Source: Zanthoxylum bungeanum (taxonomy: Eukaryota > Streptophyta > Magnoliopsida > Sapindales > Rutaceae). Taken from it: 64,000 nucleotides of DNA. Below, one piece after another: positions 23,641 to 63,437 of the stretch. The stretch is taken from assembly GCA_019454045.1 (NCBI GenBank), contig SKCR01021398.1, positions 1 through 64,000 of the forward strand. Direction: 5' to 3'. The notes below the pieces were generated by a model. It did not search any database, was not told the origin of the DNA, and worked only from the letters and a program-made list of their open reading frames with translations. How positions within the stretch are numbered: the first letter of the stretch is position 1; each line of letters opens with the position of its first letter. The translations under genes were made by a program, and so were the position numbers.

Positions 23641-23670
23641 CTAGTAGGCTAGGATCCAGTTAAATGTCAC

Positions 23671-24058
23671 ACAATCTTGACTTTGGCCAACAAAATGTAT
23701 GATGATAATAACTAGGTAGATCTCTAAGATCAATTGGATCCAATCCAATTCCTAGATCCGGTAGGTGGACATCCAAGTCCGAAACATATATCTTATATAT
23801 GCCTACATATCCAAAATGTAGCCTAACCTTTTGCCTCTGAATCAAATAGGCCTTGGCTTTGGCACAGCAAACCTAATGATCCCAGTCAAGCGCGACCCAT
23901 TGACCATGAAAAGCTTCGTAATCAATGTCGAGTGACAAGAAGTGGTCTTGACTTTGGCCAACAAACAACAACTTGGACAAGACACCAATATGGAATAAAG
24001 CTCTCGTGATTCAAATACATCTTCGACGGACAAAGGGCTTGACTTTGGCCAACAACCC
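23671..24058 (-). promoter_or_regulatory. Copia-3 leader array: four hairpins presenting CTTGACTTTGGCCAACAA
   Basis: The 18-mer is exact at 23676-23693, 23947-23964 and 24038-24055, with a variant ccttggctttggcacagcaa at 23851-23870. Arms differ: acaat/aatgt (one mismatch), tagg/ccta (23847-23850 with 23872-23875), caagaagtggt/acaacaacttg (23936-23946 with 23965-23975, mismatches inside), ggg/ccc (24035-24037 with 24056-24058). Copia-4 has the same four, mostly with better pairing. The variant loop shares CTTTGGCAC with the Copia-A loop. Confidence 0.72.
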
Positions 24059-24769
24059 AATGCCAATCTCGGATCTGAGTAAGAATCACTCAATGGAAGA
24101 AAAAAACGCTTGATATTATTTGAGGGTTTTTGCGTGCAAATTGGCTACCAATTTTATCTTTGTTAAGGTCTCATCATCATACACCCTTAAACATGCATTC
24201 TAAACACATAATAAAGCGCATATGAAAATAAATAATAATGATATGCGGATGGATACTTAACACATTGATCCTAGATCAAATCTCTCCCTTTCTCTCTCAA
24301 ACTAGCACTTGTATTACTTCTACCCGTTACACTACACTTCTAAAGAAACCTCATTTACATTGAGGGGAATAGGTGAGAAGAGAATACAAAGAGAATAGAG
24401 GTGATAGGCTGGACACGCAGGTCCAATTTAATAAATCGAATTTATTACAACAATTTCCAAAATTGCCCCACCCGACTAATATCCATCCGATATACTATAT
24501 ATTATTTTTTTATCACAACCATGTATTCACACAAGCATGTTATCAATCAATCTAATCAAATTAATTAATCTAATAATTAGTGATCATCCAATGTTCAAAC
24601 AACGATTTGATTTTGCTCGAGTCAAACTCATTTTGCGAATAAGTACTCAAAGTACAAATTCTCGAATTAAATTAAACTACATAATTAAATCCAATTTAAT
24701 GTGTATTTAATACTAATTCATTATTTAATTCCAAATTAAATATTACACTTTATTAATAAACCTTTTACG

Positions 24770-28466: not shown

Positions 28467-28766
28467 TTAACCTCCATTAAGGATAAGGTACATGATTTCT
28501 ACTGGAAATGAATCCAGCCATACAATTGTTTCAACATTTTGGATTGCTAACTTAGCTAAAGAGTGGGCCACAACATTAAAATTTCTAGATACATGAGAAC
28601 ATTTAAAGTTTTGGAAATGTCTGCAAGCATCCTCAATATCATAAATTACCCAAGCCACTTCTGTAATATTGCTATTCCTATTGTTAATTAGATCTACAAC
28701 CCCTTGAGCATCTGATTCCACAACAATCGAAGTCAGCCCACCTGTTCCGCTAGTTGCATACCCCAT
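28467..28766 (-). pseudogene. LINE ORF2 C-terminus: second half of RNase H
   Basis: 99 residues. VESDAQGVVDLI supplies the third acidic residue of RNase H, and HVSRNFNVVAHSLAKLA the conserved His/Asn block. It continues the domain begun in the frame at 28733-29944 after a frameshift near 28740-28760. The stop lies at 28467-28469, just before the poly(A) tail. Confidence 0.85.
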
Positions 28767-29944
28767 CTTACTGCCTCAGCTTCCGTATAGAGCACATTTC
28801 CATAGAATTTCGACATTTTACTGCCTGCCACTATAATCATACCATTCCAGTCTCTAATAATAGCTCCCAATCCAGAACATTTCTTCTCTATATTTATCGC
28901 TGCGTCAACATTTATCTTGTACCAGCCAACCGTAGGTGGATTCCAAGACTTCATGGCGGTCGCCTTTGATATTGTGTGGTGGTCCTTGTTCCAATGCATT
29001 ATCCTTTTATATGAATCAACCAACGCTTCTGCCCTTGCAATTATCCCCCAATTTCCTTCCAGTTTCCCTTCAAAAATTCGCTTATTTCTGGCTTGCCAGA
29101 TTGCCCAGAATGCTGCAGCAATCATCTCAAGATCTGTTCTATTATTAGTATTGGCCAATTGATTCAACGTAGTCCAGATATCCTGACATGATGCTTCTTG
29201 TATACTCTGATTAAAAGAGGTAACTTTCCAGACTTTCTTTGCTATCTTACATGACAGAAGCACATGATCAATGCTCTCTATTCCAGACTTGCAGTATTGG
29301 CAGATGGGGCTTTGCAGGATCTTCTTCTTCCACAGGTTCACAGCTGATGGCAACAGATTATTGGCAGCTCTCCACAAAAAAAATTTAATCTTTTCTGGGA
29401 TATTAAGATTCCAAATAAGGCTCCACTTGTTACTAGTTGATGCAGACTCTGAAGGAATGTCTGGGTGTTTCATCTTCATCGCTATCTGGTAGCCGCTCTT
29501 GACTAGGTACTGGCCTTTCTTGTCATAATGCCAAATAATGTGGTCTGGTTTTGGTTTTTTTGGAAGAGGAATCTCCAAAATTGCTTCTGCATCAATTTCC
29601 TTAAATCTTTCCCTTATCAACTCTTCATTCCATCTGCATTCTGCCTTAATCAAATCAGCAACTGTTGCACCTTTGGGGAGTTCTGGCTGCACAATAGGTC
29701 TGAAGGTAGAAGGCCTAGGAATCCAATTGTCCTCATTTATCACTACTTGACTGCCATTCCCAATCCTCCATCTGCAACCTTTTTCAAGAACTTGTCGTCC
29801 CCACACTATACTCCTCCAAACAAAAGAAGGATTGGAGCCCATCTTCGCATTCATGAAGTCAGAGTGTTTATAGTATCTTGCCTTTAAGACTCGAGCCACT
29901 AAAGTTTCTGGTGCTTGAATTACTCTCCATCCCTGTTTCGCCAC
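28733..29944 (-). pseudogene. LINE ORF2 fragment: thumb/zf-RVT region and first half of RNase H
   Basis: A 403-residue open frame. About residues 1-170 are the plant L1 region after RT (KQGWRVIQAPETLVARVLKARYY, WRIGNGSQVVINEDNW). About 175-245 is zf-RVT (IPEKIKFFLWRAANNLLP, then CQYCKSGIESIDHVLLSC). About 340-403 begins RNase H, with Asp347 in INVDAAI and Glu388/390 in TEAEAVRWGM. Frameshifts near 29975 and 28750 cut it from both neighbours. Longest intact frame in the window. RNase H-bearing L1s are known in plants and are thought to remove template RNA in cis. Confidence 0.88.
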
Positions 29945-29972
29945 TAGTGCTTGATTAAAGGGAAGTAGTTCC

Positions 29973-31070
29973 CTAAAGCCAAGACCTCACTTTGCTTGAC
30001 TTACTCTCCCACCTTGCCCAATGTATGCCTTTTTTATCTTCCTTATATCCCCACCAGAATTTCGCAATAGCTCTCTGTATATCCTCGCAAATCCCCACAG
30101 GTATCTTAAAAACACTCATCGTAAAAGTTGGTACTGCTTGTGCTACAGCTTTGATCAGAATTTCCTTTCCCCCACTTGAAAAGAATTTATGCTGCCAACT
30201 AGAAATCTTGCCGAGGACTCTAAGTTTAACATCATTGAAAAAACTCTTCTTCCTTCTGCCAATCATAGATGGTAATCCCAGATATTTCTAGTGCTTCGAA
30301 ACAACTTCAAGCTGAAAAATGTTCTTGATTGCTTCCTTAAGACTCGCTTGGGTGTTACTGCTGAAAAACATTGAAGACTTGTCATAATTAAACACCTGTC
30401 CTGATGCATCAGCATAGAGATCAAAGATAGTTTTCAAGTGTCTGCATTCCTCCAGTGAGGCCCTCGCGAAAATAAGACTGTCATCAGCAAAAAGGAGGTG
30501 TGAAATTTTGATGCTGATGCCAAAACCAGTCCGTGTATCTGTCTTTGTTGTTCTGCCTGCATAAACATATTGGAAAAAGCTTCTGCACAATAATGAACAT
30601 ATATGGAGATAAAGGGCACCCCTGTCTCAACACCCTCTTTTTGGTATAATATGACCTTTGGCTACCCCATTGATAATAACCGAAAATGTAGCTGTAGTAA
30701 TACAACTCATAACTAGGTCTACCCAAGATTGGGAGAACCCCAACCGAATCATAGCTTGCTGTAGAAAACACCATTCAACCCTATCATATGCTTTGCTGAT
30801 ATCTAACTTAAGAGCTACCATGCCATGTTTCTTTCCTCTGCTCATTCTAATCTTGTGTAGAGCTTCATACCCAATGATGATATTATCAGTGATAAGTCTA
30901 TCTGGAATAAATGCACTTTGGGTTGGAGAGATAATTTTGTGGAGAATAGTTTTCAATCTAGTTGCCAGAGTTTTAGAAATGATTCTGTAAATTACATTGC
31001 AGAGACTTATTGGTCTAAAGTCTCCCACTCTTTCTGGCCTATGGAATTTGGGAATCAGAGAGTGATATTT
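29973..31070 (-). pseudogene. LINE ORF2 reverse transcriptase, broken
   Basis: 30627-31028 holds VGDFRPISLCNVIYRIISKTLATRLK, SAFIPDRLITDNIIIGYEALH and KLDISKAYDRVEW, the RT blocks of plant L1. RQGCPLSPYMFI follows in another frame at 30484-30774. HLLFADDSLIF with the catalytic FADD is encoded at 30288-30590 (FADD at 30480-30491). 29973-30266 continues with KISSWQHKFFSSGGKEILIKAVAQAVPTFTMSVFKIP. Catalytic residues survive but four or more frameshifts split the protein. Confidence 0.87.
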
Positions 31071-31725
31071 CGTGCATTATAGTTGATGATTAAATTCTAT
31101 CTTTGTTTTTATGTTTCTGATTTTGATAATGAAAAAAAATGAGTAGTTAAATGTGCATATATATATGATTTTTTTTTATGGTGATTAAGTTTATTAGTTT
31201 AAGCATATATATATGATATTGTGTGTAATTGCATATTAGATTTTAAGTATTTAAAGCTGTGACAATTTATAATATAAATAAGCATGTATGGTGCATATTT
31301 AGCATACTGAAAATAACATAAACATATAAGACATAAGATGGTTAGAGAGAAAGGGTATCGATGATAGAGTAGAGAAATGCATACGCATATCTGTGCATTA
31401 TGGTTTTTATAATAGAGTTGAAATTAAGGATGACTTTGAGATTTAAAAGTATTTTAAATAAAAGTTTCAGATTTTTTTTTAAAAGTGAGATCTTTCGGAA
31501 AATGATTTTCACAGTTTTAAGATTTAAAGTGTGGTTTTCATGATTTTTCGGGGCATGAGGTAAAAAACTCACCCAGTATGTAACTTGAGATACAGTTCGG
31601 AATTGACGGATACTTTGGAATTGACGGATATAGTAGCATGTGCACATGTGGAGGACTGAGGGGACGCTCTCAGATCCTCGAACAGGACTAGGGACTACAG
31701 AGTCCCGAAATCCTAATTTCAGAAC
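31071..31725. other. Solo LTR, AT-rich part right of the LINE
   Basis: AT-rich, with short TATATA tracts. No coding or repeat structure recognised. Confidence 0.5.
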
Positions 31726-39341: not shown

Positions 39342-40560
39342 ATACTCCATCATATGTTAAGTGGGGAGTGTGTACGTCGACTACACCTGATGAAGGCGAG
39401 GAGCTCAAACACATTTGGTACCGAATAAGGACCAAATCGAGTCTACATATCGTCTGAACCAGAAGAAGATCCATAAACCGAACTTGACTCCATCATGAGC
39501 CAATTAGGGAGTGTTCCCATCGATTGGACCTGATGAAGTCTAGAAAGACATTCACTTATTTGGTATCGAAGAGGGACCAAACTGAGTCTACATGTCGTGT
39601 GGACCAGGAGAAGGTCTATGAACCGAACATGACTCCATCACGAGCCAATTAGGGAGTTTTCCCATCGACTGGACCTGATGAAGTCCAAGAAGACATTCAC
39701 TCATTTGGTATCGAGGAGGGACCACTGAGTCTACTTGTCGTGTGGACCAGGAGAAGGTCCATGAACTGAACTTGACTCCATCACGAGCCAATTGGGGAGT
39801 GTTCCCGTCAACTGGACCTGATGAAGTCCAGGAAGACATTCACTCGTTTGGTATCGAGGAGGGACCAAACCGAGTCTACATGTCGTGTGGACCAGGAGAA
39901 GGTCCATGAACTGAACTTGACTCTATCACGAGCCAATTGGGGCGTGTTTCTGTTGACTGGACCTGATGAAGTCCAGGAAGACATTCACTCATTTGGTATC
40001 GAGGAGGGACCAAATCGAGTCTACATATCGTGTGGACCAGAAGAAGGTCCATGAATTGAACTTGACTCCATCACGAGCCAATTGAGGAGTGTTCCCGTTG
40101 ACTGGATCTGATGAAGTCCAGGAAGATATTCACTCATTTGGTATCGATGAGGGACCAAACTGAGTCTACATGTCGTGTGGACTAGGAGAGGGTCCATGAA
40201 CTGAATTTGACTCCATCACGAGGCAATTGGGGAGTGTTCCCGTCGACTGGACCTGATGAAGTCCAGGAAGACATTCACTCAATTGGTATCGAGGTGGGAC
40301 CAAATCGAGTCTACATGTCGTGTAGACCATGAGAAGTTTCATGAACTGAACTTGACTCCATCACGAGCCAATTGGGGTGTGTTTCCGTCGACTAGACCTG
40401 ATGAAGTCCAGGAAGAAATTCACTCATTTGGCATCGAGGAGGGACCAAATCGAGTCTACATGTCGTGTGGACCAGGAGAATGTCCATGAACTGAACTTGA
40501 CTCCATCACGAGTTAATTGGGGAGTGTTCCCATCGACTAGACCAGATGAATGCCAGGAAA
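39342..40560. repeat. Tandem array of about 145-bp units (8 full plus a partial)
   Basis: Unit starts, read from the gactccatcac word, are 39342, 39485, 39631, 39774, 39919, 40064, 40209, 40354 and 40499. Spacing is 143-146 bp, the last four exactly 145. Each unit contains two short inverted repeats, ggacctgatgaagtcc and ggaccaggagaaggtcc, about 70 bp apart. The first unit is the most diverged. ORFs across the array are by-products of the repeat. Confidence 0.92.
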
Positions 40561-41055
40561 ATTTCCAGCCTACTCATCCCGAAGAGGAACTAATGGGAGA
40601 TTTCACGTTGTCTGGACCAGACAAAAGTCTAGTTATTGAGTTGGGCTCGATATGAGCCAATGGGGAATGTTACCTTCTACTTGACCAGATAAAGGTCAGG
40701 ACAATATCCAGTCTACTGGATCTTGTAAAGCTTCTAAACTGGTATTCACTTTATTGAACCTGATGAAGGTTCACAATTGTCTTTATTCTTCTGGAGTTGA
40801 TAAAAGTCAAAAGAAGTCTACGAGACCTAATAACGCAACACCTTGTTGTTATTCCATATTCACAAAAGCAGCCTAAGTCCATTGCAGGTTCAAAATCTAT
40901 GTACTATTGGCAATAATTGGCCCACGAAAGAGGCCCAATAACCCTTATGTGGGATCATGCATGCATCATGCAAAGGGGAAATGAGCCCAAAAGGCCACGT
41001 AAAATGCCATATACTTTCATTTAAATAAGCATGACATGCACTTAGATGTATTACT
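40561..41055. other. Degenerate flank of the 145-bp array, then unassigned
   Basis: To about 40830 it keeps half-unit words (tggaccagacaaaagtc, ttgaccagataaaggtc, gaacctgatgaaggttc), so decayed or older array. Nothing recognised from 40830 to 41055. Confidence 0.6.
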
Positions 41056-43799: not shown

Positions 43800-44170
43800 G
43801 GTAATTCATACATTTCATATAGAAAATAGGTAACAATCATTTCATGTCGATTAGAGGAGATGAATAATCTTTCAGTTTTTTTGGAAGAGATGACAATCCT
43901 TCCACTTTTTATGAGGGAGACAATAATTCTTCAATGTAGTCTGGTGGTGATGACAGTCCTTCGATGTCGTATAGAGGATATAATAATCCTCATATGTCAT
44001 CTGAGAGATGAAGATCCTTCCATACAATAAGGAGTAAATGACATATTATCAATGTCATATCTGAGGTGTATAACGATTTTTTCAAGTAGTTTGGAGTTAT
44101 TGGCAATCCATATATGTCATATGGAGAATATGACTATTCTCTTATGTCGTTTGGAGGAGATGACGATTAT
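43800..44170. repeat. Degenerate 38-43 bp repeats (ATGTC..GGAGATGACAATCC)
   Basis: About nine irregular copies of an atgtcatatggaggagatgac-like unit (e.g. 43843, 43933, 43960, 44110, 44140). They end where the LTR of element F begins. Confidence 0.6.
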
Positions 44171-44516
44171 AGGACACAGAAATCGACGATGTTGTTCTAG
44201 GCTCGCGGCCTAGTCGAGAGTATGAAATAGCCTACGAGAGACTAAACCGGAGAATAAAATGGAGTCGCCACTCAGTGTAAACTGGGACAAAGATTTAAGG
44301 TCGCACTCATCCCTCGCAAGGGAAGACCTTAAACCGTTGGGTTCAGAATGGTCCCTTACTTACGTCACTTGTAATGAAAAGATTTGTGCTATAATTTAAC
44401 CAAGTCTACGCAACCTACATACTCAAGAACGACCTATATCTAAAAATGCATACAACTTATGTCTAAGTTCATAAGCATAAATGTAAATCCTATATCTAAG
44501 TTTGCATGCATAAAAG
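44171..44516 (-). repeat. Element F 3' LTR, outer segment
   Basis: The reverse complement matches 60680-60875 of the element G LTR (gaccattctgaaccc.., ccggtttag.., cctagaacaacat..). Outer boundary near 44171 (ctgtgtcc) is approximate because the last bases differ. Ends with aaaag at 44512-44516, the target duplication of Copia-4. Confidence 0.8.
44512..44516. repeat. Target-site duplication, left copy (Copia-4)
   Basis: aaaag; identical partner at 54585-54589. Confidence 0.9.
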
Positions 44517-46645
44517 TGTTGGTAATTTATCTAGGTCCCAAGATCAAACAAGCAATGAAAACAATGTGTGAATACATCAACGGAGATAGCGGAATACTCA
44601 CATCGATCGGTTGAGTCGATTTGGAGACGAATGAAGCCCAAAATCCTCACTGCCATTCACGCCCACTGCAGCAGTCCACTGCCTCAATTTTTCAGTTTTG
44701 AGCTGAGAAAACGGAGCTCCAAGCCTCGTCCGACGGATCCCGGCTCATGGGCGAACCTCCCTACCACCTTCGCAAGTCTCATAGTGTGTTAGCACTTACG
44801 GTTTTTGCCATAAAAACCCAACTCTTGCTTCCCTTGTTCACGCCTAAATGGCTTCCAAAACAGTGAGTATTTCTCACTTTGGGCGTGAGAGAGTAGAGAG
44901 AAAAGAGAGAGAAGAAAGTTGTGTCATGAAAAAAAATTAAAGCATTTTCCAAAAAGCCTTTATATATTTTCCAAGAAAAATATATTAAAACAATTACTTT
45001 TGATTAATTAAAACCAAAAGTAAAAGCTTTTCCCCTCAAACACTATTACACCAACTTACATCAACTATTCACATGTCACTTTAATAAAGTGATGTGATGT
45101 AAGTCTATCAATCAATCAATCACTCATATCAATCAATCAAATGTCACATCACTCAAAGTGACGTTTGATTTGACGCTTGATGTGATGAATGACTTGACGT
45201 TGGATTTGACGCTTGATGTGACTTGCGTGCCGCATTCGAATTCGAAATACGAATGCGCTCGCAATCACACTCGGGCTCGGGTTCGCTAATTCCAAAATTA
45301 ACGATTTTTCCATCACGTCGTAATTAAATGATTACGCCTAGCGAATTCACTATTCACGTCGCTAACGAATTAATTCTAAATAAATTCGTTCGCCCGAATT
45401 AAAATCTAATTTTAATTCCGCGTCGAAATCTAATTTCATTTAATATATCGAATATATTAATTTACCGATTAATTCCAAATTAATCGTTATCTCTCTCTTG
45501 ACGATATTTTATCCTAGATAAAATATCTCCGTAATTAATCCTAGATTAATTTTCTCTCTCTCTTCTATTTAATCCCAGATTATTCAAGAGTGCGAGTTAT
45601 GCGTCATCGGTGGATTATCGGGAAGCGACCCATGAGATCCCCGGATAAGTTGGCAGTAAATACGGTCGTCGGTGTATCCGAATCACGTACGTACCAAGTA
45701 CTACGTTCTACCGATTTACGAGACAAGGTCGACTTCGAGCAAAGCACCAAGTCTACCCAATTCTCCGGACATATCCATTTAAGAATATTAAGATCTGTAT
45801 CAAGCGTAGTATACTATTGTATTGTGTGTATCGGCCTAGTATCGGATAGTCACGTGCTAGGGCTGGGGCTGGATAAGTGTCTGCCCCGTCCGAAGCACAT
45901 GTCGGATGTCTGGTAACTAGTCTCTATAATCGGATATTCATGACCTGGTCATAATATCACGATTGGATGCGCATCACTTAATAGCACTAATACCGTATCC
46001 TGCGTGACATCATCTCCAATATGACTGAAGTGATACTTCCGTCTTGACATCACACCCAATACACTACGACTCTCTGATAAACCCAGAAGTGGTGTACGCA
46101 GAACCGTTTAAAGCCCTGTACCACCAAGACCAAAGTCTATCGATTATCGTAAGTATTAGCGATGTAAGTCTCAGGTTAAGACTATACACCCTACCTTGAT
46201 TTCGGCCTACCATAGACACATAGTCATAATACCAATGGGATTCCGAGGGGTCTATCCAGAGCGAAGCTGTTTCCCGTACCATCGGTGAAACACGACCTCC
46301 TATCGCACTTGCATAAGTATCCGATACTTATATATATGAGAACTATGCCGTTGTGCCCTCACAACGCACACAAGTGCAATACTAGCCTATTCCGCATTAT
46401 CGATGCCCAGTCTCGATAATACTCTCGGCTAGGGATATTTAATGATTAATCATTCGGGGAATGATACTGTCTCATATCATTCTCAGTCCAGGAACTAATC
46501 ATAGGGACCTCTTCTTCATTTTATATATCTATGGTGATCTAATCACAAATGATGAGAGTGCAATTTCCTTGTCACATAGTTAATTTGCTACACAAAACAC
46601 AATGTTCTGTGCAAATAGTGACGCTATGGGTCATTTTGTCCAACA
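44517..46645 (-). repeat. Copia-4 3' LTR
   Basis: TGTTGGtaattt to gtccaaca. TATA-like box TATATAAAGG (minus) at 44957-44966. Two TGACG pairs at 45159-45175 and 45195-45211. Confidence 0.92.
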
Positions 46646-49450
46646 ATCTCCCACTTGGCACATAGCCAGTCACTCAAGTGTCCTACACTCGAACTATGTA
46701 CGGTTCGCTCAAATTGCTGAGGAAAGGTTTTCGTCAGCGGATTTGTTTGATTATCGTTTGACGCGATTTATACGATCATCACACATCGCCGCGATGTATG
46801 ATCCGAACGAATCAGATGATATAGAAGTATATATCTGGATCGTCGATGAGACCTTTAATTCCTTAGCATGTGCTGACGCCTAGCTCAGCTGCTAACAGAA
46901 CTATATCTATCTAATTAGATTTGTTTTTGATCCAAATGGCTTCTTTTGCTGCTGCCTCAGCTGCAGCAATAATCCGCATTTGTTGTTTATTCGGCAACAG
47001 TTATCTTGCTTGGAAGATTTCCAGCTCACTGTCCCGTTATTCAAACTTTATAGTACCACAATATTTAATTGTTTGGAAACTTACAGCGGTGATCCCAGTC
47101 ACTTCAAGTTCTCCTTCTCCATAGTTTAAGACAACATCTTTAGTTCTCTCTCAGATACTAACAGATGTTCTTAATCTTCAATCCAGTGACTATCACTTGG
47201 ATTGACCTGATCGTGACTCCATATGCTCGAAGCGTATGAGACACCAATACAAGTACATTTTAAATGTACAATTTCCCAGAGAGTGTTAACAAACTCCAAA
47301 TCTATCCCAGCAGATCTTTATTCCTCGAATAAAGGTTTTTACTCCCCAGAATTCTACGGAGAATTTCTATTGAAAGAATATCTATGAAAGCCAAGTTTTC
47401 AACAATAGCTTTATGGGAATTTCACTGTCAGTCGCCCTCCACTAACCTCCATATATACACAAGAATTATTTCGTTTTGAGTCAAATCATAAACCATTATG
47501 ATTATTTCAAAACGTCAGTTCCAAGAACCTTATGTTTGCTTCAATCCAAACATGAATCGAATAACCCACAAACCTTGTTTGTCGGTTATACAAAATCGTC
47601 AGGATGTTATAAACATCCTCCAAAAGGTTTCCTTTTCAGGAAAGCGATTTTGATCTATAACTGACACATTTCATAAATGAAATATACAGTTATCTTCAAG
47701 CATCTTCAAAATGGATTTACCATGGCAACAGGTAAAAGGTTGAACCGTTATTAACACAATGTTGATAACGATACCATTTCGTCAAAAGCCCAGCTTTGTA
47801 CGTTGGTATGTTGCCTTCCATGTATGTCTTCCTTGAAGACATTTAATGCACCAATAGGCACAATGCCTTGTGGTACAATAACTAGTATCCAAAATAGTTG
47901 TTATACATGGAATCCATTTCGGACTCATAGCACTTTGCCATAACAGGGAGTTGATACCTCGTATCACTTCCTAAAATCGTAGTCGGTTGGTATACCTTCA
48001 TAAGATTGACATCTTTATGAGGTTAGATCAGAAACCCATACCCAAGGTTGTTTTCTGACTCTATCCGATCTACTAGTTTTTTGTGTATTTGAAGATTAAT
48101 GGTATAGATTCATCATAGATGAACTATTTGTGTTCCATTAAGGACTTCGTGCCTTGAACAGTATTACTCTCCGATTTATCATCGAGTATCACTATCCTCC
48201 CACTGACCACTGCATATCGGTATTCCTCTCAGGAAAAACCGCATGGTGAGCAACAATCAGATTGTTCTCATGTGAGATTTATAAGTACTATACTTATGGT
48301 TTCCCTTAGGATAACCTATATTGGCACTAATCCAATTTGGGTCTTTTAGTTTGGTATCATCCAAACGTTATGCCTGGCATACCCAAATTATCAGGAATGA
48401 GAAACCTCGTTTCTTCCCTGCTCATATCCTATATGACATCTGTCAAACAGATTTATATGGAACCTTATTCTAAATAAGTTTTGCACTGTTAATACATATC
48501 CTATTGAAGGAAACAGTAGCTCAGAGCGACTCGTGATAAACCTTATCATGTCCAACAAAATTCGGTTTTAGTTCGGACACACCGTCTAACAGACGTGTCC
48601 CGAGAGGAGTCCTCATATGAAAGAATACCGTACTCTTTTATTTACGTATGAAACTTACTGCTTAAGTATTTTCCATTACGGTCTTATCATGGCGGAACAA
48701 TACTATAGCCGATCTGTTTATTTACTTCGTGTCGAAACTTCAAAAGTTTCCGATCTGTGTTCATCAAAAGAAACACATAACCACAACGTGATGCCACATC
48801 CGTTAAGGTCACGAAATATTCATGTTCACATCTAGCCTAGCTAGATATGGGCCCCACTTAACCATGAATAGGGCTAACAGATCGGTGGCACTTTTACTAT
48901 TACCAAGTAAATAGTATTTTAGGTACTTTACCTAATAAACTAGATTCGCAGACCTTATTTGAATAATCAAATCAGTCCTAGTACTCACTCTTCAAAAGTG
49001 TGGATATACGAGTCTTGTTTAATTGTGTCCTAGACAACAATGCCACAAATAAGTCTCTATTGATCAAATCAATTTGAGCTATTTATTTGTCATTTTATAT
49101 GTTTGAGATTTTATTTATATTCAAAATATAAATTCTGTTATTTACATCTAATGTATTTATCTCAGTATCATCTTTATATAATAAAACACTTAGTGTTCTA
49201 GAATATAAAGGTTTCATCCGCATCGGATTAAAAACTGATATAGAGATAATGTCTCTAGTTAAACTAGTTACATCATAACATTTCCAAATTTAAGTACATA
49301 CCCAAAGGGTAGTTCCCAAACTTAGGTATCTACGGTCGAAACAGCGACTTTCGTCCCGTTTCCGATTCGCAGAGAAATCTCGGCTTGAAGTCAGTATCCA
49401 GCTCATAGCGGATTCTGAACATCAATACATATATTTTATGTACCACACTA
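46646..49450 (-). pseudogene. Copia-4 pol remnants (RNase H, RT, integrase)
   Basis: Starts with the polypurine complement atctcccacttgg. Minus-strand RT can be followed near 47500-47840 (YKAGLL, then GSTF, a one-base shift, then PVAMVNP at 47723-47746, and FGLKQ..GSWN near 47520). Integrase C-terminus with GYPKGN lies near 48290-48380. No frame over 75 residues. The frameshift between GSTF and PVAM is shared with Copia-3, so it predates the last transpositions. Confidence 0.72.
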
Positions 49451-50320
49451 AGTATTTAAATCCAATTTGAATACTAGTAGCGAACATAACTTTGACAAAT
49501 ATTTTTAAAGTTAGAGCCTCGCCTTTTCTTTAATTCCTTCGTGTCTTCCATATCCAAATGGTAGTCACTTTGGGATATGTCAATTATCTTTTCAATATTT
49601 CACAAACCTTTGGCCAAGCCTTGGGTTTTAGAATATCGAAATGATGTGCACCTTGTGCAACTTGCCCAATTGGCATACTTTGACATTAAAATAGATTTAT
49701 TGTCAAGTATATTAAATTAAGCACTAAAGTCATCATCACATAAATCTTCCAAAGATTTTATGCTCTACTTATTTGCTTAATTATGGGCCTAGATATAACA
49801 AGTTATTTTATCCAATAAAGTAACCTATTATTTATTCCCAATATGAAAATTAAATCATTTAAAACATATAATCCAAGGATTATATATTTTAAATATTCAA
49901 CTTTTCAATTCTTTCTTGATTTTAATAGTCTAACTATTTAATCAATTTTAATAAAGGTACTATTTATTATAATGATTACAATAATCCAATTATTTAATCA
50001 ACTATAATTTTAATATTGATTACAATAATCCAATTATAAAATCAACTGTCATTATGATTCAATTATATTGATTACTATAATCCAATTATAAAATCAACTA
50101 TATATCGAATGAGTTTGTATATAGTCGAACTATATATATTTTTAAAACAACATAAAATATTAGTCCAACTAATACTTTTGATTAATACGACGAGTAAAAT
50201 ATAGATGAGCGCGTTTAGCGAGTATTCGAACGAATGTTGCAAATTCAATACTTGTTTCCCACTATTTTTCGTCGAGCCTCTAACCCTCTGTCGAGTACTC
50301 GGGAAACCGTGTTTCCTAGT
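49451..50320 (-). other. Copia-4 internal region, gag expected but not readable
   Basis: Same position as 22501-23640 in Copia-3 and clearly related to it. No Gag block recognised. Confidence 0.4.
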
Positions 50321-50345
50321 GGGCTAGGATCCCGTTAAATGTCAC

Positions 50346-50730
50346 ACAATCTTGACTTTGGCCAACAAATTGTATGATAATTAACTAGGTAGATCTCGAA
50401 GATCAATTGGATCTTATCCAACTCCTAGATCCAGTAGGTGGACATCCAAGTCCCAAACATATATCTAATATATGCCTATATATCGAATATATACCCTAAC
50501 CTTTTTCCTCTGAATCAACTAGGCCTTGGCTTTGGCACAACAAACCTAGCGATCCCAGTCAAGCGCGGACCCATTGACATGGAAGCTTCGTAATCAATGT
50601 CAATGGACAAGAAGTGGTCTTGACTTTGGCCAACAAACCACAACTTGGACACGACACCGATATGGAACAAAGCCTCGTGATTAAAGCACATCTTCGACGG
50701 ACAAGGGCTTGACTTTGGCCAACAACCCCT
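50346..50730 (-). promoter_or_regulatory. Copia-4 leader array: four hairpins presenting CTTGACTTTGGCCAACAA
   Basis: Exact 18-mer at 50351-50368, 50619-50636 and 50708-50725; variant ccttggctttggcacaacaa at 50524-50543. Arms directly abutting are acaat/attgt (50346-50350 with 50369-50373), ctagg/cctag (50519-50523 with 50545-50549), gtggt/accac extended by caag/cttg (50608-50618 with 50637-50647), and ggg/ccc with a bulged extension (50705-50707 with 50726-50728). Four unrelated stems around one loop sequence. Confidence 0.78.
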
Positions 50731-51479
50731 GCCAATCTCGGATCTTGAGCAAGAATCACTCAATGGAAGGAAAATAAACGCTTGATATTTAACGAGGGTT
50801 TTTCGCGTGCAAATTGGCTACCAATTTAGTTATCTTTGTTAAGGTCTCATCATCATACACCCTTAAACATGCATTCTAAATACATAATAAAGCGAGTACG
50901 AAAATAAATAATAATGATATCCGGATGGATACTTTACACATTGATCCTAGATCAAATCTATCCCTTTCTCACTCAAGGTAGCACTTGTATTACTTCTACC
51001 CGTTACACTACACTTCTAAAGAAACCTCTTATACATAGAAGGGAATAGGTGATAAGAGAATACAAAGAGAATGAAGGTGATAAGGCTGGACACGCAGGTC
51101 CAATTTAATAAATCGAATTTATTACAACAATTTCTAAAATTGCCCACCCATCTAATATCCATCCGATATACATTATTCATTCAACACAACCACGTACTCA
51201 CACAGATAAGCATGCTATCAATCAATCTAATCAAATTAATTAATCTGATAATTAAGTGATCATCCAATGCTCAAACAACGATTTGATTTTGCTCGAGTCA
51301 AACTCGTTTTACGAATAAGTACTCAAAGTACGAATTCTTGAATTAAATTAAACTACATCATTAAATCCAATATAACATGTATTTAATACTAATTCACTAT
51401 TCAATTCCAAATTAAATATTACACTTTTATTTAATAAACCTTTTACGATTTAAATTCCAAATTTAATCGTAACGCGTCT

Positions 51480-51800
51480 CAAAGACCGATTAACGTCCAA
51501 CGTCAATTCAATTAATGTCCAATGGGCTTTTAATTGATTTCTTAAGGCGTGGACTTTTGGTCAACTCGGGTCAAACCGATAACCAAAGTCCAATCCGGGA
51601 TTTACCCCATAAGCCCATAAATCAATTTAGGCCCATTAGGCCCAATTGAACTTTAAAGGTTCATTAGTCGCATTTGGGCTTTATGGTTAAGGTTTTGGGC
51701 CCAATTGGATCCAATCCACTTGGCCTAAACCAAACTTGATAAATCAAGCCCAATAGGCCCAAATACAACATTAAAGTCCAATTTCCAAAATTAGGCCCAA
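51480..51800 (-). promoter_or_regulatory. Cluster of TGGGCC/TGGGCT words in Copia-4 leader
   Basis: Counterpart of 24770-25110 in Copia-3 (aatgggctttt, aggcccattaggcccaatt, tttgggcttt, ttgggcccaattgg). Possible site II-like motifs; role unproven. Confidence 0.38.
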
Positions 51801-52444
51801 ATAATTAAATTCAAAAAATCCAATTTTCCCAATTTAATTACCAAAGTGTATTACAAGATTAATAACCTAAATCAACATTTCCAAAACACTAAATTTACAT
51901 AATTAATCATGGTCATTTTCATTATCACATGTCCAACACATAAATGAAAAAATCAAACCCATTAACATGCTTAAAGGTCTCGGCCAAGGGAGGGATTTTG
52001 TGTCCGATTCGGTTTCAATCCAATCGAACCCACAATCGACATCAAATCAACATCCTAAATGATTTCATACACATCCAATGTTCATAAAATCAAAAATCCA
52101 AGACATTAGGGCAATATGTCCAATTCTACCAACATGAGAATTTTGGGGATTAATGTTCAATTCAAAATCCAATTCAATTCGATTCAAATTAACATCAACC
52201 TAAATGATTCTAACTCATCAAACGAATCAAAACCAAAAATTCCAAGAATCCAAAATTCACAATACCATTCGGCCAAGGGGAATAATTTGGGGAAAATTGT
52301 TCTAAACATTTTTTCTTGAAATTGATCAAATCAATCTTCAATATTACATATACTAAGCATGCTCAATCATCTAATTTCGTTAAATCATGCTCGAATACAA
52401 AATACCCAATTTTAAGCCCTACATTTTTCATGCTTGAACCAATA

Positions 52445-52457
52445 GCTCTTGATGCCA
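52445..52457 (-). other. Copia-4 primer-binding site
   Basis: Minus strand TGGCATCAAGAGC, a tRNA-Met-type variant, one base inside the LTR start at 52459. Confidence 0.83.
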
Positions 52458-52899
52458 TTGTTGGTAATTTATCTAGGTCCAAAGATCAAACAAGCAATGA
52501 AAACAATGTGTGAATACATCAACGGAGATAGCGGAATACTCACATCGATCGGTTGAGTCGATTTGGAGACGAATGAAGCCCAAAATCCTCACTGCCATTC
52601 ACGCCCACTGCAGCAGTCCACTGCCTCAATTTTTCAGTTTTGAGCTGAGAAAACGGAGCTCCAAGCCTCGTCAGACGGATCCCGGCTCATTGGCGAACCT
52701 CCCTACCACCTTCGCAAGTCTCGTAGTGTGCTAGCACTTGCGGGTTTTGCCATAAAAACCCAACTCTTGCTTCCCTTGTTCACGCTTAAATGGCTTCCAA
52801 AACAGTGAGTATTTCTCACTTTGGGCGTGAGAGAGTAGAGAGAAAAGAGAGAGAAGAAAGTTGTGTCATGAATAAAAAATTTAAGCATTTTCCAAAAAG

Positions 52900-52909
52900 C
52901 CTTTATATA
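52900..52909 (-). promoter_or_regulatory. TATA box of Copia-4 5' LTR
   Basis: TATATAAAGG on the minus strand. Conserved in both Copia-4 LTRs and, as TATATAAATG, in both Copia-3 LTRs. Confidence 0.65.
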
Positions 52910-53101
52910 TTTTCCAAGAAAAATATATTAAAACAATTACTTTTGATTAATTAAAACCAAAAGTAAAAGCTTTTCCCTCCAAACACTATTACACCAACTT
53001 ACATCAACTATTCACATGTCACTTTAATAAAGTGATGTGATGTAAGTCTATCAATCAATCAATCACTCATATCAATCAATCAAATGTCACATCACTCAAA
53101 G

Positions 53102-53154
53102 TGACGTTTGATTTGACGCTTGATGTGATGAATGACTTGACGTTGGATTTGACG
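53102..53154. promoter_or_regulatory. Two as-1-type TGACG pairs in Copia-4 U3
   Basis: TGACG at 53102-53106 and 53114-53118, and again at 53138-53142 and 53150-53154, each pair with exactly 7 bp between. This is the spacing of the as-1 element, bound by TGA bZIP factors. They lie about 190-245 bp upstream of the TATA box on the sense strand. The other LTR keeps both (45159-45211). Confidence 0.65.
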
Positions 53155-54584
53155 CTTGATGTGACTTGCGTGCCGCATTCGAATTCGAAATACGAATGCG
53201 CTCGCAATCACACTCGGGCTCGGGTTCGCTAATTCTGAATTAACGATTTTTCCGTCGCGTCGTAATTAAATGATTACGCCTAGCGAATTCACTATTCACG
53301 TCGCTAACGAATTAATTCTAAATAAATTCGTTCGCCCGAATTAAAATCTAATTTTAATTCCACGTCGAAATCTAATTTCATTTAATATATCGAATATATT
53401 AATTTACCGATTAATTCCAAATTAATCGTTAACTCTCTCTAGATGATATTTTATCCTAGATAAAATATCTCCGTAATTAATCCTAGATTAATTTTCTCTC
53501 TCTCTTCTATTTAATCCCAGATTATTCAAGAGTGCGAGTTATGCGTCATCGGTGGATTATCGGGAAGCGACCCATGAGAACCCCGGATAAGTTGGCAGTA
53601 AATACGGTCGTCGGTGTATCCGAATCACGTACGTACCAAGTACTATGTTCTACCGATTTACGAGACAAGGTCGACTTCTAGCAAAGCACCAAGTCTACCC
53701 AATTCTCCGGACATATCCATTTAAGAATATTAAGACCTGTATCAAGCGTAGTATACTATTGTATTGTGTGTATCGGCCTAGTATCGGATAGTCACGTGCT
53801 AGGGCTGGGGCTGGATAAGTGTCAGCCCCGTCCGAAGCACATGTCGGATGTCTGGTAACTAGTCTCTATAATCGGATATTCATGACCTGGTCATAATATC
53901 ACGATTGGATGCGCATCACTTAAGAGCACTAATACCGTATCCTGCGTGACATCATCTCCAATATGACTGAAGTGATACTTTCGTCTTGACAGCACACCCA
54001 ATACACTACGACTCTCTGATAAACCCAGAAGTGGTGTACGCAGAACCGGTTAAAGCCCTGTACCACCAAGACCAAAGTCTATCGATTATCGTAAGTATTA
54101 GCGATGTAAGTCTCAGGTTAAGACTATACACACCTACCTTGATTTCGGCCTACCATAGACACATAGTCATAATACCAATGGGATTCCGAGGGGTCTATCC
54201 AGAGCGAAGCTGTTTCCCGTACCATCGGTGAAACACGACCTCCTATCGCACTTGCATAAGTATCCGATACTTATATATATGAGAACTATGCCGTTGTGCC
54301 CTCACAACGCACACAAGTGCAATACTAGCCTATTCCGTATTATCGATGTCCAGTCTCGATAATACTCCGGCTAGGGATATTTAATGATTAATCATTCGGG
54401 GACTGATACTGTCTCATATCATTCTCAGTCCAGGAACTAATCATAGGGACCTCTCTTCATTTATATATCTATGGTGATCTAATCACAAATGATGAGAGTG
54501 CAATTTCCTTGTCACATAGTTAATTTGCTACAACAACACAATGTTCTGTGTAAATAGTGACGCTATGGGTCATTTTGTCCAACA

Positions 54585-54589
54585 AAAAG
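54585..54589. repeat. Target-site duplication, right copy (Copia-4)
   Basis: aaaag, identical to 44512-44516. Confidence 0.9.
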
Positions 54590-55587
54590 TAAGTCGGCAT
54601 AACGGCAAGCACGCCAGCATATATATACATCAAATCAATAAACACGACAAAATAAATAAATAACAACCTAAACATAAACGTAAATTAAATTCTTAATGCG
54701 AAAGCAAATAACTAAATCATGCATAAAAAATAACATACTAACGACTAAATCATGCTTAAAAATAAATAACATACTAACGACTAAATCATACTCAAAGACA
54801 AGGTTGGATGAAACGAAATATGTGTGTCTCTCAAGTGGTACGTGGCATTATATCCCGAGTACAGATCGTACTACCGTCCATTCGGATTCGGCTACGGAAT
54901 TTACGTCCGCATTTCCATCTGATATACCGCAAGAGATAACACATATTCCATTCATCCCATGGTCATAGCATACACCAATCAACAATACTCATGCGAAGTA
55001 ACATATGAAAATAAATAAAAATAAAGGAGTATAAATAAAAAGGGTGCCCTCAGGTCTAACATCTTAAGTCGTCCCTCAGAAGTGCGTTCGCAGTCATCTG
55101 AAGGGTTGATGCTCCGCGACATTTTTGGTATTAGTTTATTTAATTTAAATTTAATTTGTTTTATTTCATTTGAATTGGAATTAATTTAATTAGATTTAAT
55201 TTGTGAATTTAATTTAATTAATTTAATTGGTTTGTGATTTTTAGATTTAACATTTAATTTATTTAATTTAGGTTATTTAATTTAATTTCAATTTAGTTAT
55301 TTTAATTCCACTTCAATTAGTTATTTAATTTAATTTGATTGATTTTAGTTTAATTTAATTTGTGTTTTAATTTAGTTGGTTTTAATGGGCTTTGGCTCAG
55401 GTTAAGTTTTAAAACGGAGGTCCAACAAGCAAACTCGAAGCTAAACACGTGAACTAAATCCCACAAAACATCAATTCTTGACTCTTCCCTTTCGACGTCC
55501 GTTTCCCACGACTGTCGCGACTTAAAAGGTAGTGCCTCCAAATGAGACTCATCATCGAGTTTCACATGTAAAAATGCAATGCCTACA
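54590..55587 (-). repeat. Element F 3' LTR, inner segment
   Basis: On the minus strand it starts TGTAGGCATTGC at 55587, as element G does at 57352. The first about 180 bp align well (gatgatgagtctca, ggaggcactacctttta). Holds the shared module at 54838-54927. 55100-55380 is a taattt-rich run with no counterpart seen in G. Confidence 0.82.
54838..54927 (-). repeat. Shared module copy 2 (element F LTR)
   Basis: gtacgtgg..tatcccgagtacag..taccgtccattcggattc..gatatac. Counterpart of 14310-14399 in Copia-B. Confidence 0.8.
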
Positions 55588-56664
55588 ATCGTGTTGTTGG
55601 TGGTAGTGACAAGAACGGTTCATGTTGAGGTGTGGTGAGGGAGGATTTGGAAGTGGTTTAGCCTCTAAGGGTTTTAGGAGTCCTTGCCTTGCCAACTTCT
55701 CAAGCACCTTGGATAAAGGCCTACCCATGTTGAAGAAACACTGGTTCTTGCTAACAGTAACCGTAGCAGTAACAGGCTTGGCACCTGATGGCCCTCCGAC
55801 AGTCCTCATGTTCATGTCATAGAACTTCATACTCTCAACTTCTTCTTCCTCAATGTCCATGACAGTCTCCATTAACTGTCGAAAGTCCGTAATAATGGAG
55901 GTCATCCTCCTCAGCTTGCCATAGATAGAGGGCTTAGTACCCATGATAATCATCTTAATATGTATTTTCAGAAGCTGACTTCTCCAGCGGTCTACATAGT
56001 TCTTGAAGCTTTCTTCCGGCTTCTGCTTGGTATTCTCCAAGTCGTGAAGCGACAAGTCGATCTCCAAGTCTATGACATAATGGTTCAGAAAGGCTTCTTC
56101 CAGTGCCCTCTAGTCATCTTTGACCTTCCTCTCTAGGCCATGATACCATACCACAGGTGCCCCCTCAAGGGACATCCCAAACATCTTCTAGACCTGACAT
56201 TTCGATAGACCCACTAAGCTCATTACAGAAACATACTATCGGAGATGGACTCTCGGGTCTCTGTTCCCATTGAATTTAGCCATGTTAGACATCTTGAACT
56301 GAGTTGGCAACTGTTCCTCAAACGTCATTGCCTTGTAGTCTAGCAAATCACCATGCTTACCCTTCATCTTGCGGGTAACTAACTCTACCTGATCTTAGAG
56401 TTTTTGTAATTCAGCCTGAGACCAAGCTACTCTTCCCACAACATACTCAGCCATATCATCATCGAAGACAGGGATATCATCACTCAGTCTATTCGGAGGG
56501 TCCTCACGCCTCTCATTCGCAGAGCTTCCCCCAGCAAGGGGCACTGCCATATTAGCCATAACAGTAGTCAAAGCTTGCAGTTTCTTGGTAACCTTAGTGA
56601 GACTGTTCTCCGGCTGATCCATACGGGATACCTCGTTCTATGATTCACTTATGTTCATTGATAG
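55588..56664 (-). pseudogene. Element F gag, joined to the 3' LTR
   Basis: 56395-56622 carries MDQPENSLTKVTKKLQALTTVMANMAVP and 55552-56067 carries LENTKQKPEESFKNYVDRWRSQLLK, MIIMGTKPSIYGKLRRM and MGRPLSKVLEKLARQGLLKPLEAKPLPNPP, each with a counterpart in element G. The middle (56070-56390) is broken. Reading ends at CHYHQQHD, where element G continues through its zinc-binding segment, but here the next bases are the LTR start. Gag of this type forms particles. The gag-LTR junction means a deletion or template switch removed pol. Confidence 0.85.
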
Positions 56665-57351
56665 CCTTTTGATGAATCTACCCTCTTCCCTAACCCAACG
56701 GGTATCTATAGTGTCTTTTAAAACTACAAGTTAGGATGTATGCATGCTACGTATGGAATATATAAGTCGGCCCATTATCATTTTAAAGCATTCAATCATA
56801 CTATTGCGAAGTGCAAACTTGTCCTAGTTGAAAAGGCCCAATAGCTTACACTTTTGTGATAACATGACTAAATAACTTCAAATGATAAGGGGCCTAAGCA
56901 GAAAATGGCCCATCGGCATTTTAGAAGCTTTTGGCCCAATTGCCATAAAGCACAGGCTTATCCTAGTTTAAATGGCCCAACAAGCCCATACCTCATGACA
57001 AAAAGTCCAACTGAATCCAAATGACGATGGTCCTAAACGCAAGCATAACAGGATAGTTTCTACTAGTCCTACAACTACAGTTCATGTGCGGGTGTACCGA
57101 CAAAGGCTCTCGTTGATGAAGGATTGCCCACAACTAGGACTCCCCATTCAAGGGTTCAAACAACCAAGTGAGCATATCTTTTTTATATGCTAAGGTACAT
57201 GCCAACGAGTTAAGATACGTGGCTGACTCTCAAATGGATTTCCTGTTGTAGATTCCCCAGAGGGAGGGTGGAGCGAACTCTCTTAAATACCCAAGCCTCT
57301 TAGGCTCTTATCGCTTTGTGATAGGCATAAACAAAAAGTCCTCCAAATTAG
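56665..57351 (-). other. Element F leader (partial)
   Basis: Matches 61096-62048 of element G in reverse complement (gcgataagagcc, cttgggtacttaa, ctctggggaatct). Includes two copies of a gggccatttaaactaggata-like repeat (about 56766-56893 and 56930-57030). Broken at 57351 by element G. Confidence 0.82.
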
Positions 57352-58056
57352 TGTAGGCATTGCATTTTTGTATGTGAAACCCGATGATGAGTCTCAGTTG
57401 GAGGCACTACCTTTTAAGTTGCGAAAGCCGCGGGAAACGGACATCGGAAGGGAAGAGTCAAGAATCGACTCATTGACGGATTAAGTTCACTAGTTTAGTT
57501 TCGAGTAGCTCGTTTGATTTCTGTTTTAAAAATTATTCCCGGCCCAAGACACTCACAAATCACACACCTCGGCCCAAAACCCCCGCAAGCTCCTTGACCT
57601 TGACCTAAAACCCCTGCTAGCCCACACACCTAGCCCACACAAACCAAACCCACCAACCAAAGGCCCACACGCCCCAACCAAGGCCCACACGCCCATTTGC
57701 CTACTACACACCCAAATTAAATCAAATAAATATTAATTAGATAATATAATTAAATAAAATAATAATTAAAATATTTACCAAACATTAAATAAACATATAC
57801 CTAAATAAACAAATTAAATATGTTATACACCTAAATTAAAAAGATAATATAACTAATTAAAATCAATCTTAACAATTAAAAATATTAGATGCCTAACTTA
57901 ACAAATATCATGCCTAAACAATACAAATCAAATATTGTAACTTCTTATTTGAATAAACCTTGTCCCCCCTCAATCTTGTGTATACCTTTCTTGGAAATCC
58001 TAAATTGAATGCAAGATCCCTTCCTTGTAAGACAAGGACAAACCCTAGCCCTCTTC

Positions 58057-60899: not shown

Positions 60900-62048
60900 T
60901 AGAGAATCGGCCCCGAAACAATGCCTTGTAATGTATAGATTTATGCTTTAATTAACCGTGTCTACAAATGGGTAAAATAAGGGTTGTTGATTAAAGACAT
61001 TTTAAGGCTAGTTAGTTGTTTGGTGTCTTCCCTCACTCACTACCTTTCGAGGAAAAGCTGCGAAGGCACCTAAATGATCATTACCATTAGCCTGTTGTGA
61101 CATACTAATTTGGAGGATTTGTTGCTTATTCCTGTCACCAAGCGATAAGAGCCTAAGAGGCTTGGGTACTTAAGTGAGCCTCGCTCCACCTTCCCTCTGG
61201 GGAATCTGCAACAAGGAATCCATTTGACAGTTAGTCACACACCATGACTTGTTGGCACGTACCGTAAGGTATAAAAAAGGGTGCGCTTGCTTGGTCACTC
61301 GAACCCTTGAGTGGGGAGACCTAGTTGTGGGCAATCCTTCGCCGACAAGAGTCTTTGTCCATACTCCCACGAACCCACGCGTAGACCGGGTTGTGTAGCC
61401 TATAACAAATATTTCCTTGTGCTTTAGGACCGCCCTTATTTTGATGTGGTTGGACTCTTTGTCAAAAATGTGAATTTGCTGGGCTATTTAAACTGGGGCG
61501 AGTTCGTATCTTATGACAATTAAGCCCAAAACTTCTGAAATGATGGTGGGCCACACCGTAGAAATTATTATTTTATGCTTATACTATCTCCCTTGTATGC
61601 TTGTGTTTGGGAACATTGCTATCTGGATCCATTTGGATCTTTTGTCATGAGATATGGGCTTGTTGGGCCATTTAAACTGGGACAAGAACATATCTTATGA
61701 TTATTGGGCCAAAGGTTTCTAATAACGATGGGCTATTTTGTGATTGTGTTCGGAATATTATCATTTGGATTTAGTTGGGCTCCTTGCCATAAGATATGAA
61801 CTCGTTGGGCCATTTAAACTGGGACGGGTTCACTCTTATGACAGTCAGCCCAAAAGCTTCTAAAATGATAATAAGTCGATTTGTTTGAAAATTTTATTGA
61901 CTTAGTATGATTTATATATTATATGCTTTTCATGCACATCATGCATACATATATTATGTTAACACCCTCTGTGTCTTTAAAAAAAGACATCATAGATACC
62001 GTTTGGGTTAGAGAAGGGACAAGACTCACCAAAAAATCGAGAACAGAC
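60900..62048 (+). other. Element G leader with triplicated segment
   Basis: No coding match. gggc(c/t)atttaaactggg recurs at about 61483, 61664 and 61809 with a following aagcccaaaa-like word, spaced about 145-180 bp. The same leader lies inverted in F at 56665-57351. Confidence 0.7.
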
Positions 62049-63437
62049 ATGAGTGAATCAGATATTGAGGTATCCCGTATGGATCAGTTGGAAAACAGTC
62101 TCACAAAGATTACTGAACAGCAGCAAGCCTTGACTACTGCTGTGGCTGGTATGGCTGTGTCCCGTGCTGGGGGAAATTCTGAAAATGTGAGGCGTGAGGA
62201 GTCTCCGATTGGGTTGGGGGATGATGTCCCCGCTTTTGATGACGATGGCATGGCAGAATATGAAACAGGCAAAATGATTGGGTCTCCTGCAGAATTTCAG
62301 AAACTTCGGGATCAGGTTGAAACAGTTACCCGCAAGATGAGGGGTGGTAAGTATGAAGAGTTGTTGGATTATGAGGCAATGACATTTGAAGAACAGTTCC
62401 GGCTCAGTTCAAGATGCCGGACATGGCTAAGTTTAACGGGAATGGGGATCCGAGGGTCCATCTCCGTCAGTATGTTTCAGTCATGAGTTCAGTGGGTTTG
62501 TCCAAGCGCCAGGCGCTGAAAATTTTGGAATGTCACTTGAAGGGGCACCGGTAGTTTGGTATCACAACCTTGAGAAGAAGGTTAGGGAAGATTGGAGGGA
62601 GTTGGCTGATGCTTTTCTGAAGCAATAAGTCACAGACTTGGAGATTAATTTGTCACTCGTGATTTGGAGAACACTAAGCAGAAGCCAGAGGAAAGCTTCA
62701 AGGAGTATGTAGACCGGTGGAGAAGTCAGTTGTTGAAAATGCAGACTAGGCCCTCTGAGAAGGACCAAATTAAGATGATTATCAAGGGCACCAAGCCCTC
62801 CATCTATGGGAAACTGAGGAGGATGACCTCCATGATTACAGACTTTCGGCAGTTGAGGGAAACTGTCATGGACATTGAAGAGGAAGAGGCGGAAAATAGG
62901 AAGTTTTATGGCCTAAGTAGGAGGCCTATTGGAGGGACATCGGGCACCAAACCTGTCTCTGCGGAGATTGCTGCCATCCGGAACCGGAGATTCTCCAACT
63001 TGGGGAGACCCTTGTCTAAGGTGTTGGAAAAATTAAAAAGACAAGGACTTCTGAAACCCTTGGAGGCCAAACCATTACCCAATCCCCCACCATCACATTA
63101 CAACCTAAACCTTTACTGTCACTTCCACCAACAGAAAGGCCATGACACTGATAATTGCACCCGACTCTGCCATGAAATCCAAGACCTGATAGATTCCAAG
63201 AAAATACCCGACCCAGAAACAGAACAGCCTGACACCACAGAAACCCATTACCCAACTACCGTGCCGTACCACCGCAACCTATATGATCAATTCAGGCCTC
63301 CCAGAAGACCTTGTCCTAAAATCCTTTCACCCCTCAAGCCTTTTGCCTGGGAATCTGGGATAGTAATAGTGAAGATGAGACTGAGCGAGGGAAGAACTTT
63401 TGGCTTGATTTCTCTAGTGGTGATGAGGAAGAAGTGA
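62049..63437 (+). pseudogene. Element G gag
   Basis: Start ATG at 62049 (MSESDIEVSRMDQLENSLTKI), chosen because the F copy has a similar start. Then KMPDMAKFNGNGDP and HLRQYVSVMSSVGLSKRQALK (capsid N-terminal part, one frame off from 62400), EGAPVVWYHNLEKK in a third frame, and KQ followed by a stop at 62626-62628 where Tyr is expected. 62664-63437 is open for 257 residues: YVDRWRSQLLKM, KMIIKGTKPSIYGKLRRM, then CHFHQQKGHDTDNC (CX2-type His/Cys zinc-binding segment). Four or so lesions make it non-functional. Confidence 0.87.

Follow-up and report, generated by a model that had tools for sequence, protein, structure and literature searches.

Among described systems, the gammaretroviral GACG hairpins (SL-C and SL-D of murine leukaemia virus) are one of those closest to the array reported here, being likewise leader hairpins with one invariant tetraloop. 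The GACG hairpin pair was reportedly described by Konings in 1992, and a double hairpin is reported for spleen necrosis virus (both cited in PMC5086612). GACG hairpins have been linked to packaging and dimer stability (PMC516450, PMC5874298). The plant array, known from sequence alone, differs in having four hairpins instead of two, a CAAA loop with a UG bulge, and a copia-type carrier; the four loops of the copy in question, one of two in the window (the whole 64-kb stretch of DNA that was analysed), are CAAA and not GACG. Ty1 belongs to the copia superfamily. Its 5' leader structure is required for helper-driven transposition of mini-Ty1 (PMC5454406, PMC4974528). The Ty1 leader contains two hairpins with complementary 7-nt apices and a pseudoknot, whereas the plant array contains four copies with one tip. 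LARD elements are non-coding and are mobilised in trans. For the rye repeat Superior, a fold of four stems ending in hairpin loops is reported (PMC2851119). Compared with LARD elements and Superior, the plant element keeps recognisable pol remnants and has one tip common to four hairpins. Barley BARE1 and BARE2 are copia-type like the plant element; BARE2 is unable to make Gag, is still packaged and keeps its dimerisation and packaging signals (PMC3735527). The words 'hairpin' and 'stem-loop' are absent from this BARE text, and no four-hairpin array was found in its passages. In the open-licence literature, represented mostly by titles and the starts of abstracts, no description of such a fourfold one-tip array was found. 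Little is known about what plant LTR retrotransposon RNA requires in cis for packaging, or about how copies devoid of genes rise to dominance in genomes.

The window copy of the element is bounded by a 3' LTR at 44517..46645 and a 5' LTR at 52459..54584 (both minus strand, mapped by LTR alignment). Over 2132 aligned columns the 3' LTR shares 98.1% identity with 52459-54585; its ends are TGTTGG...CCAACA, and a 5-bp target duplication (AAAAG) is found at 44512-44516 and 54585-54589. The polypurine tract-like sequence AAGTGGGAGAT (46646..46656, minus strand) adjoins the 3' LTR; this tract precedes the LTR in 14 of 20 copies compared and is absent in the other six. The PBS-like sequence TGGCATCAAGAGC (52445..52457, minus strand) adjoins the 5' LTR. 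It is slightly unlike the tRNA-iMet-like TGGTATCAGAGC of some other copies, which is exact in three of the 13 copies with a located PBS and represented by near variants in the rest. Since the purine tract adjoins the left LTR and the PBS-like site adjoins the right LTR, the sense strand is the minus strand. The preliminary description had placed the array between the primer site and gag. This position holds for the family, as judged from copies with a PBS and from a fetched relative, L038, with its gag ORF downstream. In the window copy the array lies ~1.7-2.1 kb downstream of the PBS; the sense strand is corrected here to minus.

The stretch at 46700..49499 (minus strand), used for the pol comparisons, is a dead pol remnant with numerous stops (37 mapped) and frameshifts. 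It was detected with three L038 ORF pieces as tblastn queries at E 1e-5, and the same search gave no gag match in the window copy. Three short ORFs of the window copy had no Pfam match. L038 shows matches to PF14223 (6.5e-13), gag_pre-integrs (1.4e-16) and RVT_2 (1.3e-76) in this order, with a zinc-knuckle match below threshold in gag besides PF14223, and the first Met of its gag ORF is found ~255 nt past the last hairpin. A protein search with L038 gag returned 13 matches, the majority of them unnamed; among viral contigs, four pattern matches to relatives of this gag were found and none was confirmed. The LTR ends, target duplication, PBS, purine tract and L038 domains all fit, and by these features the host element is an LTR retrotransposon of the Ty1/copia superfamily, possibly resembling the Angela/BARE lineage.

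The array lies in a leader stretch at 50300..50790 (minus strand), as folded in the RNAalifold consensus. Three exact copies of an 18-mer and one variant had been claimed for this interval, and all were located, the exact copies at 50351-50368, 50619-50636 and 50708-50725 and the variant core at 50525-50543. The bracketing arms (acaat/attgt, ctagg/cctag, gtggt/accac plus caag/cttg, and ggg/ccc) were also found as described. The single open 18-nt loop did not stand: on the sense strand it is predicted to comprise a 2-nt bulge and a 5-bp stem capped by a 4-nt loop. The predicted sense-RNA unit consists of a variable outer stem, a U-G closing pair, a UG bulge, a UUGGC/GUCAA inner stem and a CAAA tetraloop. 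The window copy has this tetraloop in each of its four hairpins. HP1 (50343..50376, minus strand; arms CAUACAAU/AUUGUGUG, core 50368-50351) scored 54.5 bits (E 1.9e-12) with a covariance model built partly from HP1 itself. HP2 (50517..50551, minus strand; arms CGCUAGGU/GCCUAGUU; 46 bits) contains the variant core (50543-50525) with one additional base and GCCAA, and its inner stem reads UUG, one bulged base, GC/GCCAA. HP3 (50611..50644, minus strand; core 50636-50619; 52.8 bits) has the stem GUGGU/ACCAC, followed outward by a UU/UU internal loop and CAAG/CUUG. HP4 (50700..50733, minus strand; arms GGCAGGGG/CCCUUGUC, core 50725-50708) scored 46 bits.

Outward from the core, the minus-strand arms form an unbroken Watson-Crick/G-U run of 8, 7, 5 and 8 pairs in HP1 to HP4 (8 positions examined); runs of equal or greater length at 18-nt spacing occur at 0.11%, 0.22%, 1.1% and 0.11% of window positions, respectively. 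Single-sequence folding gave minus-strand z-scores of -2.9, -1.8, -3.7 and -4.1 for HP1 to HP4, and plus-strand z-scores of -1.8, -0.25, -1.9 and +0.2. The folding gain of HP2 over shuffles is modest, both in the window copy and in the 45 arrays described below. Covariance models of 4227 Rfam families gave no match in window 44000-55000 at E up to 1. The LTR start (TTGTTGGACAAAATGACC; minus strand, window 54585-54568 and 46646-46629) agrees with the 18-mer in 13 of 18 letters. It was considered as a possible origin of the 18-mer and set aside; another site in both LTRs scores 14/18, and the likeness may be due to chance.

The 18-mer with up to three mismatches gave six matches in the window (0.08 expected), three of which fall in a second element (23676-24055). 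A second four-hairpin array is found there at 23668..24063 (minus strand; hairpins at 23668-23701, 23844-23878, 23939-23972 and 24030-24063); the related element that carries it gave no gag match by tblastn. The covariance model (49 hairpins, 16 arrays) gave eight matches in the 64-kb window, that is, the two arrays of four. In 20 fetched stretches (8.8-10 kb each, 198,801 bases together), some hairpins of which also went into model building, it gave 91 matches and none outside arrays. These 91 matches make up 23 arrays, 22 of them with four hairpins; the remaining one, in L031, is cut and has three. Two arrays each are found in L029, L031 and L048, and one in each of the other 17 stretches. 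The hairpins are spaced by 88-95, 93-95 and 155-179 nt. In a set of 45 arrays, from which six partial array hits were left out beforehand, 36 have the first three outer pairs intact in all four hairpins. The 3.96-Gb assembly contains 124,992 + 124,126 = 249,118 copies of the 18-mer with at most one mismatch (reversed control, 6 + 9); from 2.84 such cores per array in the 45 arrays, the genome is estimated to contain ~88,000 arrays. The sample comes from one genome and was fetched via the near-exact core, which inflates core conservation somewhat; this probe bias spares the stems and HP2, neither of which is matched by the probe.

Pairing was evaluated in two ways. The pair-count set contained 49 hairpins (34 distinct) from 16 of the 45 arrays, chosen by near-exact core (49/64) and therefore uninformative on core conservation. 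In this set 89.7% of cells are paired, compared with 75.6% after shuffling and 27-48% in slid registers, and covariation is 0.481 compared with 0.226 and at most 0.146. Neither the paired-cell share nor the covariation was reached by any of 500 shuffles. Two weaker measures, the number of pairs with changes on both sides and the number of pair types, were equalled by 14/500 and 234/500 shuffles, respectively. The phylogeny test used a tree from the non-hairpin columns of the 45 arrays and a null in which columns evolve independently. It covered 27 outer pairs; HP4 pairs 4-5, HP3 pairs 6-7 and HP2 pair 8 were excluded after inspection (mostly unpaired). HP4 outer positions four and five, though paired in the window copy, are mismatched in 37 of 45 copies. 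Paired outer-stem cells number 1168 of 1215 (96%; 1022 ± 39 expected) and double differences 2111 (610 ± 279 expected), values as high being found in 0/1000 simulations. Ten branches changed both sides and still paired (2.2 expected; 0/300 simulations as high).

Covariation in family alignments, to which the preliminary description had looked for support, was found for the proposed pairs, which beat 1,000 simulations, and not in an all-pairs screen of the 45 arrays under a strict null. There the best of 119,316 pairs was a stem pair of HP3 with E 1.2 and no pair had E < 1, so the statistical support rests on the proposed-pair test. RNAalifold, supplied with 30 arrays and no structure, predicted longer arms that end in the four hairpins. 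Of the 146 pairs in its consensus, 22 carry a both-sided change retained by one or more sequences. Support for this wider fold is weaker than for the hairpins themselves, because in the six relatives without a gag match compared below the non-hairpin array is no better conserved than the dead pol. A small extra hairpin, GGAAAC..GTTTCC, follows HP1 (window 50302-50316, minus strand), with a matched change to GGAAAT..ATTTCC in three of 30 copies. Matched changes are likewise seen in an AU-rich arm located between HP2 and HP1 in the 30-array alignment.

Among 1440 outer-stem cells there are 186 G-U compared with 16 A-C, which argues for selection on the sense RNA. Mean folding z-scores over 45 arrays for each hairpin are -3.33, -1.45, -2.25 and -1.65 for HP1 to HP4 in the sense orientation and -0.07, -0.73, -0.39 and -0.51 in antisense. 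Compensatory changes beyond phylogeny, the G-U bias, fixed tips and diverging stems agree with selection for an RNA hairpin as proposed earlier, and the presence of four recurrent hairpins under selection at the level of sense RNA is supported.

The timing of change was examined on a tree possibly disturbed by recombination between subfamilies. Core changes fall on internal branches in five cases and on terminal branches in 55, compared with 194 and 412 in the array outside hairpins (Fisher p 4.6e-5). All five internal-branch core changes are in HP2, with zero in HP1, HP3 and HP4. The ratio of kept to broken pairs is 26:5 on internal and 48:40 on terminal branches (p 0.0047). Constraint in replicating lineages followed by neutral decay once inserted is what such a pattern suggests, with tip changes arising almost only after insertion.

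The window copy served as reference for a comparison with six relatives that gave no gag match (W2, L031, L032, L039, L040 and L043). Mismatches amount to 3/437 in the cores (0.7%), 52/384 in outer stems (13.5%), 170/1530 in the array outside hairpins (11.1%) and 1454/14,824 in the pol remnant (9.8%). The other 15 copies differ from the window copy at 25/1093 core, 181/960 outer-stem, 441/3816 other array and 5592/32,515 pol positions. Pol stops in common exceed the independent expectation in 21/21 pairs of the seven elements (window copy plus six relatives), ranging from 2 vs 0.7 (L031-L043, few codons) to 21 vs 2.5 (W2-L039); C-to-T decay that hit the same codons in parallel may be partly behind this sharing. 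Separate gene deaths have little room, because the dead pol of L031, L032 and L040 is 94-95% identical to that of the window copy (L031 aligned over only 40%). Since stops are shared, the dead pol is alike and the window LTRs are 98.1% identical, the lineage apparently multiplied after gene death, and it seems to have gone on transposing after loss of its genes. The lack of a gag match, dead pol, recent insertion and shared disabling changes are consistent with a gag-less trans-mobilised type (BARE2/LARD-like), the trans step of which we infer from these features. In L031 and L032 the array is only 86% identical to that of the window copy (44517-54584), compared with the 94-95% in dead pol. 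Subfamilies may thus swap leader arrays through recombination.

We propose that the array is a single RNA recognition hairpin present fourfold in a Ty1/copia-type genomic RNA. The tips would be bound by a trans-acting protein, for which the zinc-knuckle Gag of autonomous relatives is the likeliest candidate, and this binding would cause the element RNA to be chosen for packaging into virus-like particles. The palindrome UUGGCCAA, present in three of the four hairpins, may assist pairing of two RNAs. We give this reading, in which Gag is the presumed ligand, a probability of about 0.5. The hairpin is probably the handle through which the element RNA gets recognised and copied. Retroviral packaging signals usually lie in the leader between PBS and gag, and a Gag packaging handle fits best for that reason. 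Unpaired G is the base favoured by many retroviral nucleocapsids; it is scarce in the bulge and loop, which counts against Gag binding. More tentatively, the fourfold Gag-binding hairpin could be the plant copia packaging signal, and the array, retained during gene decay, could have let gag-less parasites multiply within this family of ~88,000 arrays.

The array might instead serve dimer initiation, the self-complementary UUGGCCAA giving kissing or extended-duplex contacts between genomic RNAs and several hairpins raising avidity. The palindrome is found in the tips of HP1, HP3 and HP4 with a predicted duplex of -11.1 kcal/mol. Ty1 RNA has been modelled to dimerise via kissing hairpins (PMC5454406), and several palindromes are common in gammaretroviruses (PMC5874298). 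However, HP2 has no palindrome (UUGUGCCAA, -3.5 kcal/mol) yet retains the bulge, the inner stem and the CAAA loop, and the palindrome is therefore not what the hairpins share; half of UUGGCCAA is moreover already paired inside the predicted inner stem. We consider a dimer initiation array unlikely as the main function.

A host protein could also use the hairpins as a handle on unspliced RNA, for nuclear export, stability or escape from silencing. The RTE and MTE of mouse IAP and musD are comparable elements (PMC12786077). Such a handle would also be required by gag-less copies, identical repeated tips suit a protein ligand, and a host-protein ligand would account for the same data. The present data indicate no particular host factor, however, and the leader from PBS to gag is the usual place of retroviral packaging signals; on balance a host ligand appears rather improbable compared with Gag.

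Control of gag translation (internal entry, a block to reinitiation, or a switch between translation and packaging) had been suggested in the preliminary description, and the ~255 nt from the last hairpin to the first gag Met in L038 speak for it. In copies without a gag match, however, the cores diverge by 0.7% compared with 9.8% in the pol remnant. A Gag-less element needs export, packaging and copying by outside proteins, and a gag translation switch is therefore superfluous. In the window lineage, with no gag match and pol dead, such control is unlikely to be what maintains the array, and we regard it as very unlikely overall. The divergence figures speak for a handle that acts in cis and is used in trans, most likely as a signal for packaging by Gag. 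A DNA-level element (CTTGACT includes what we take to be a W-box-like TTGAC core, and a cruciform could form) or a copying artefact without RNA function (reverse transcriptase is able to correct imperfect palindromes) is hardly credible, since DNA does not predict the strand preference (G-U:A-C 186:16; mean folding z between -0.07 and -0.73 in antisense, which is weak, vs -1.45 to -3.33 in sense) and palindrome copying would give perfect complements, yet G-U pairs are widely kept.

The array offers a compact 34-nt motif that occurs four times in each element and of which a single genome supplies tens of thousands of natural variants. The dead pol in the same copies is a built-in control, and the cis requirement is directly testable. 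If the more tentative reading above is true, identical multivalent tips on freely evolving stems would parallel, in a plant, the multi-site packaging signals that RNA viruses have.

Three other features were observed in the window. A tandem repeat array with a unit of ~145 nt, the units being roughly 80-88% alike, is found at 39344-40565. On the minus strand at 28733-31076 there are ORFs of 417 and 149 aa, which by eye resemble parts of a LINE-type reverse transcriptase element. Two inverted copies of another gag-like region, gypsy-like by eye (ENTKQKPEESFK..YVDRWRSQLLK), are located at 55552-57535 and 61104-63437.
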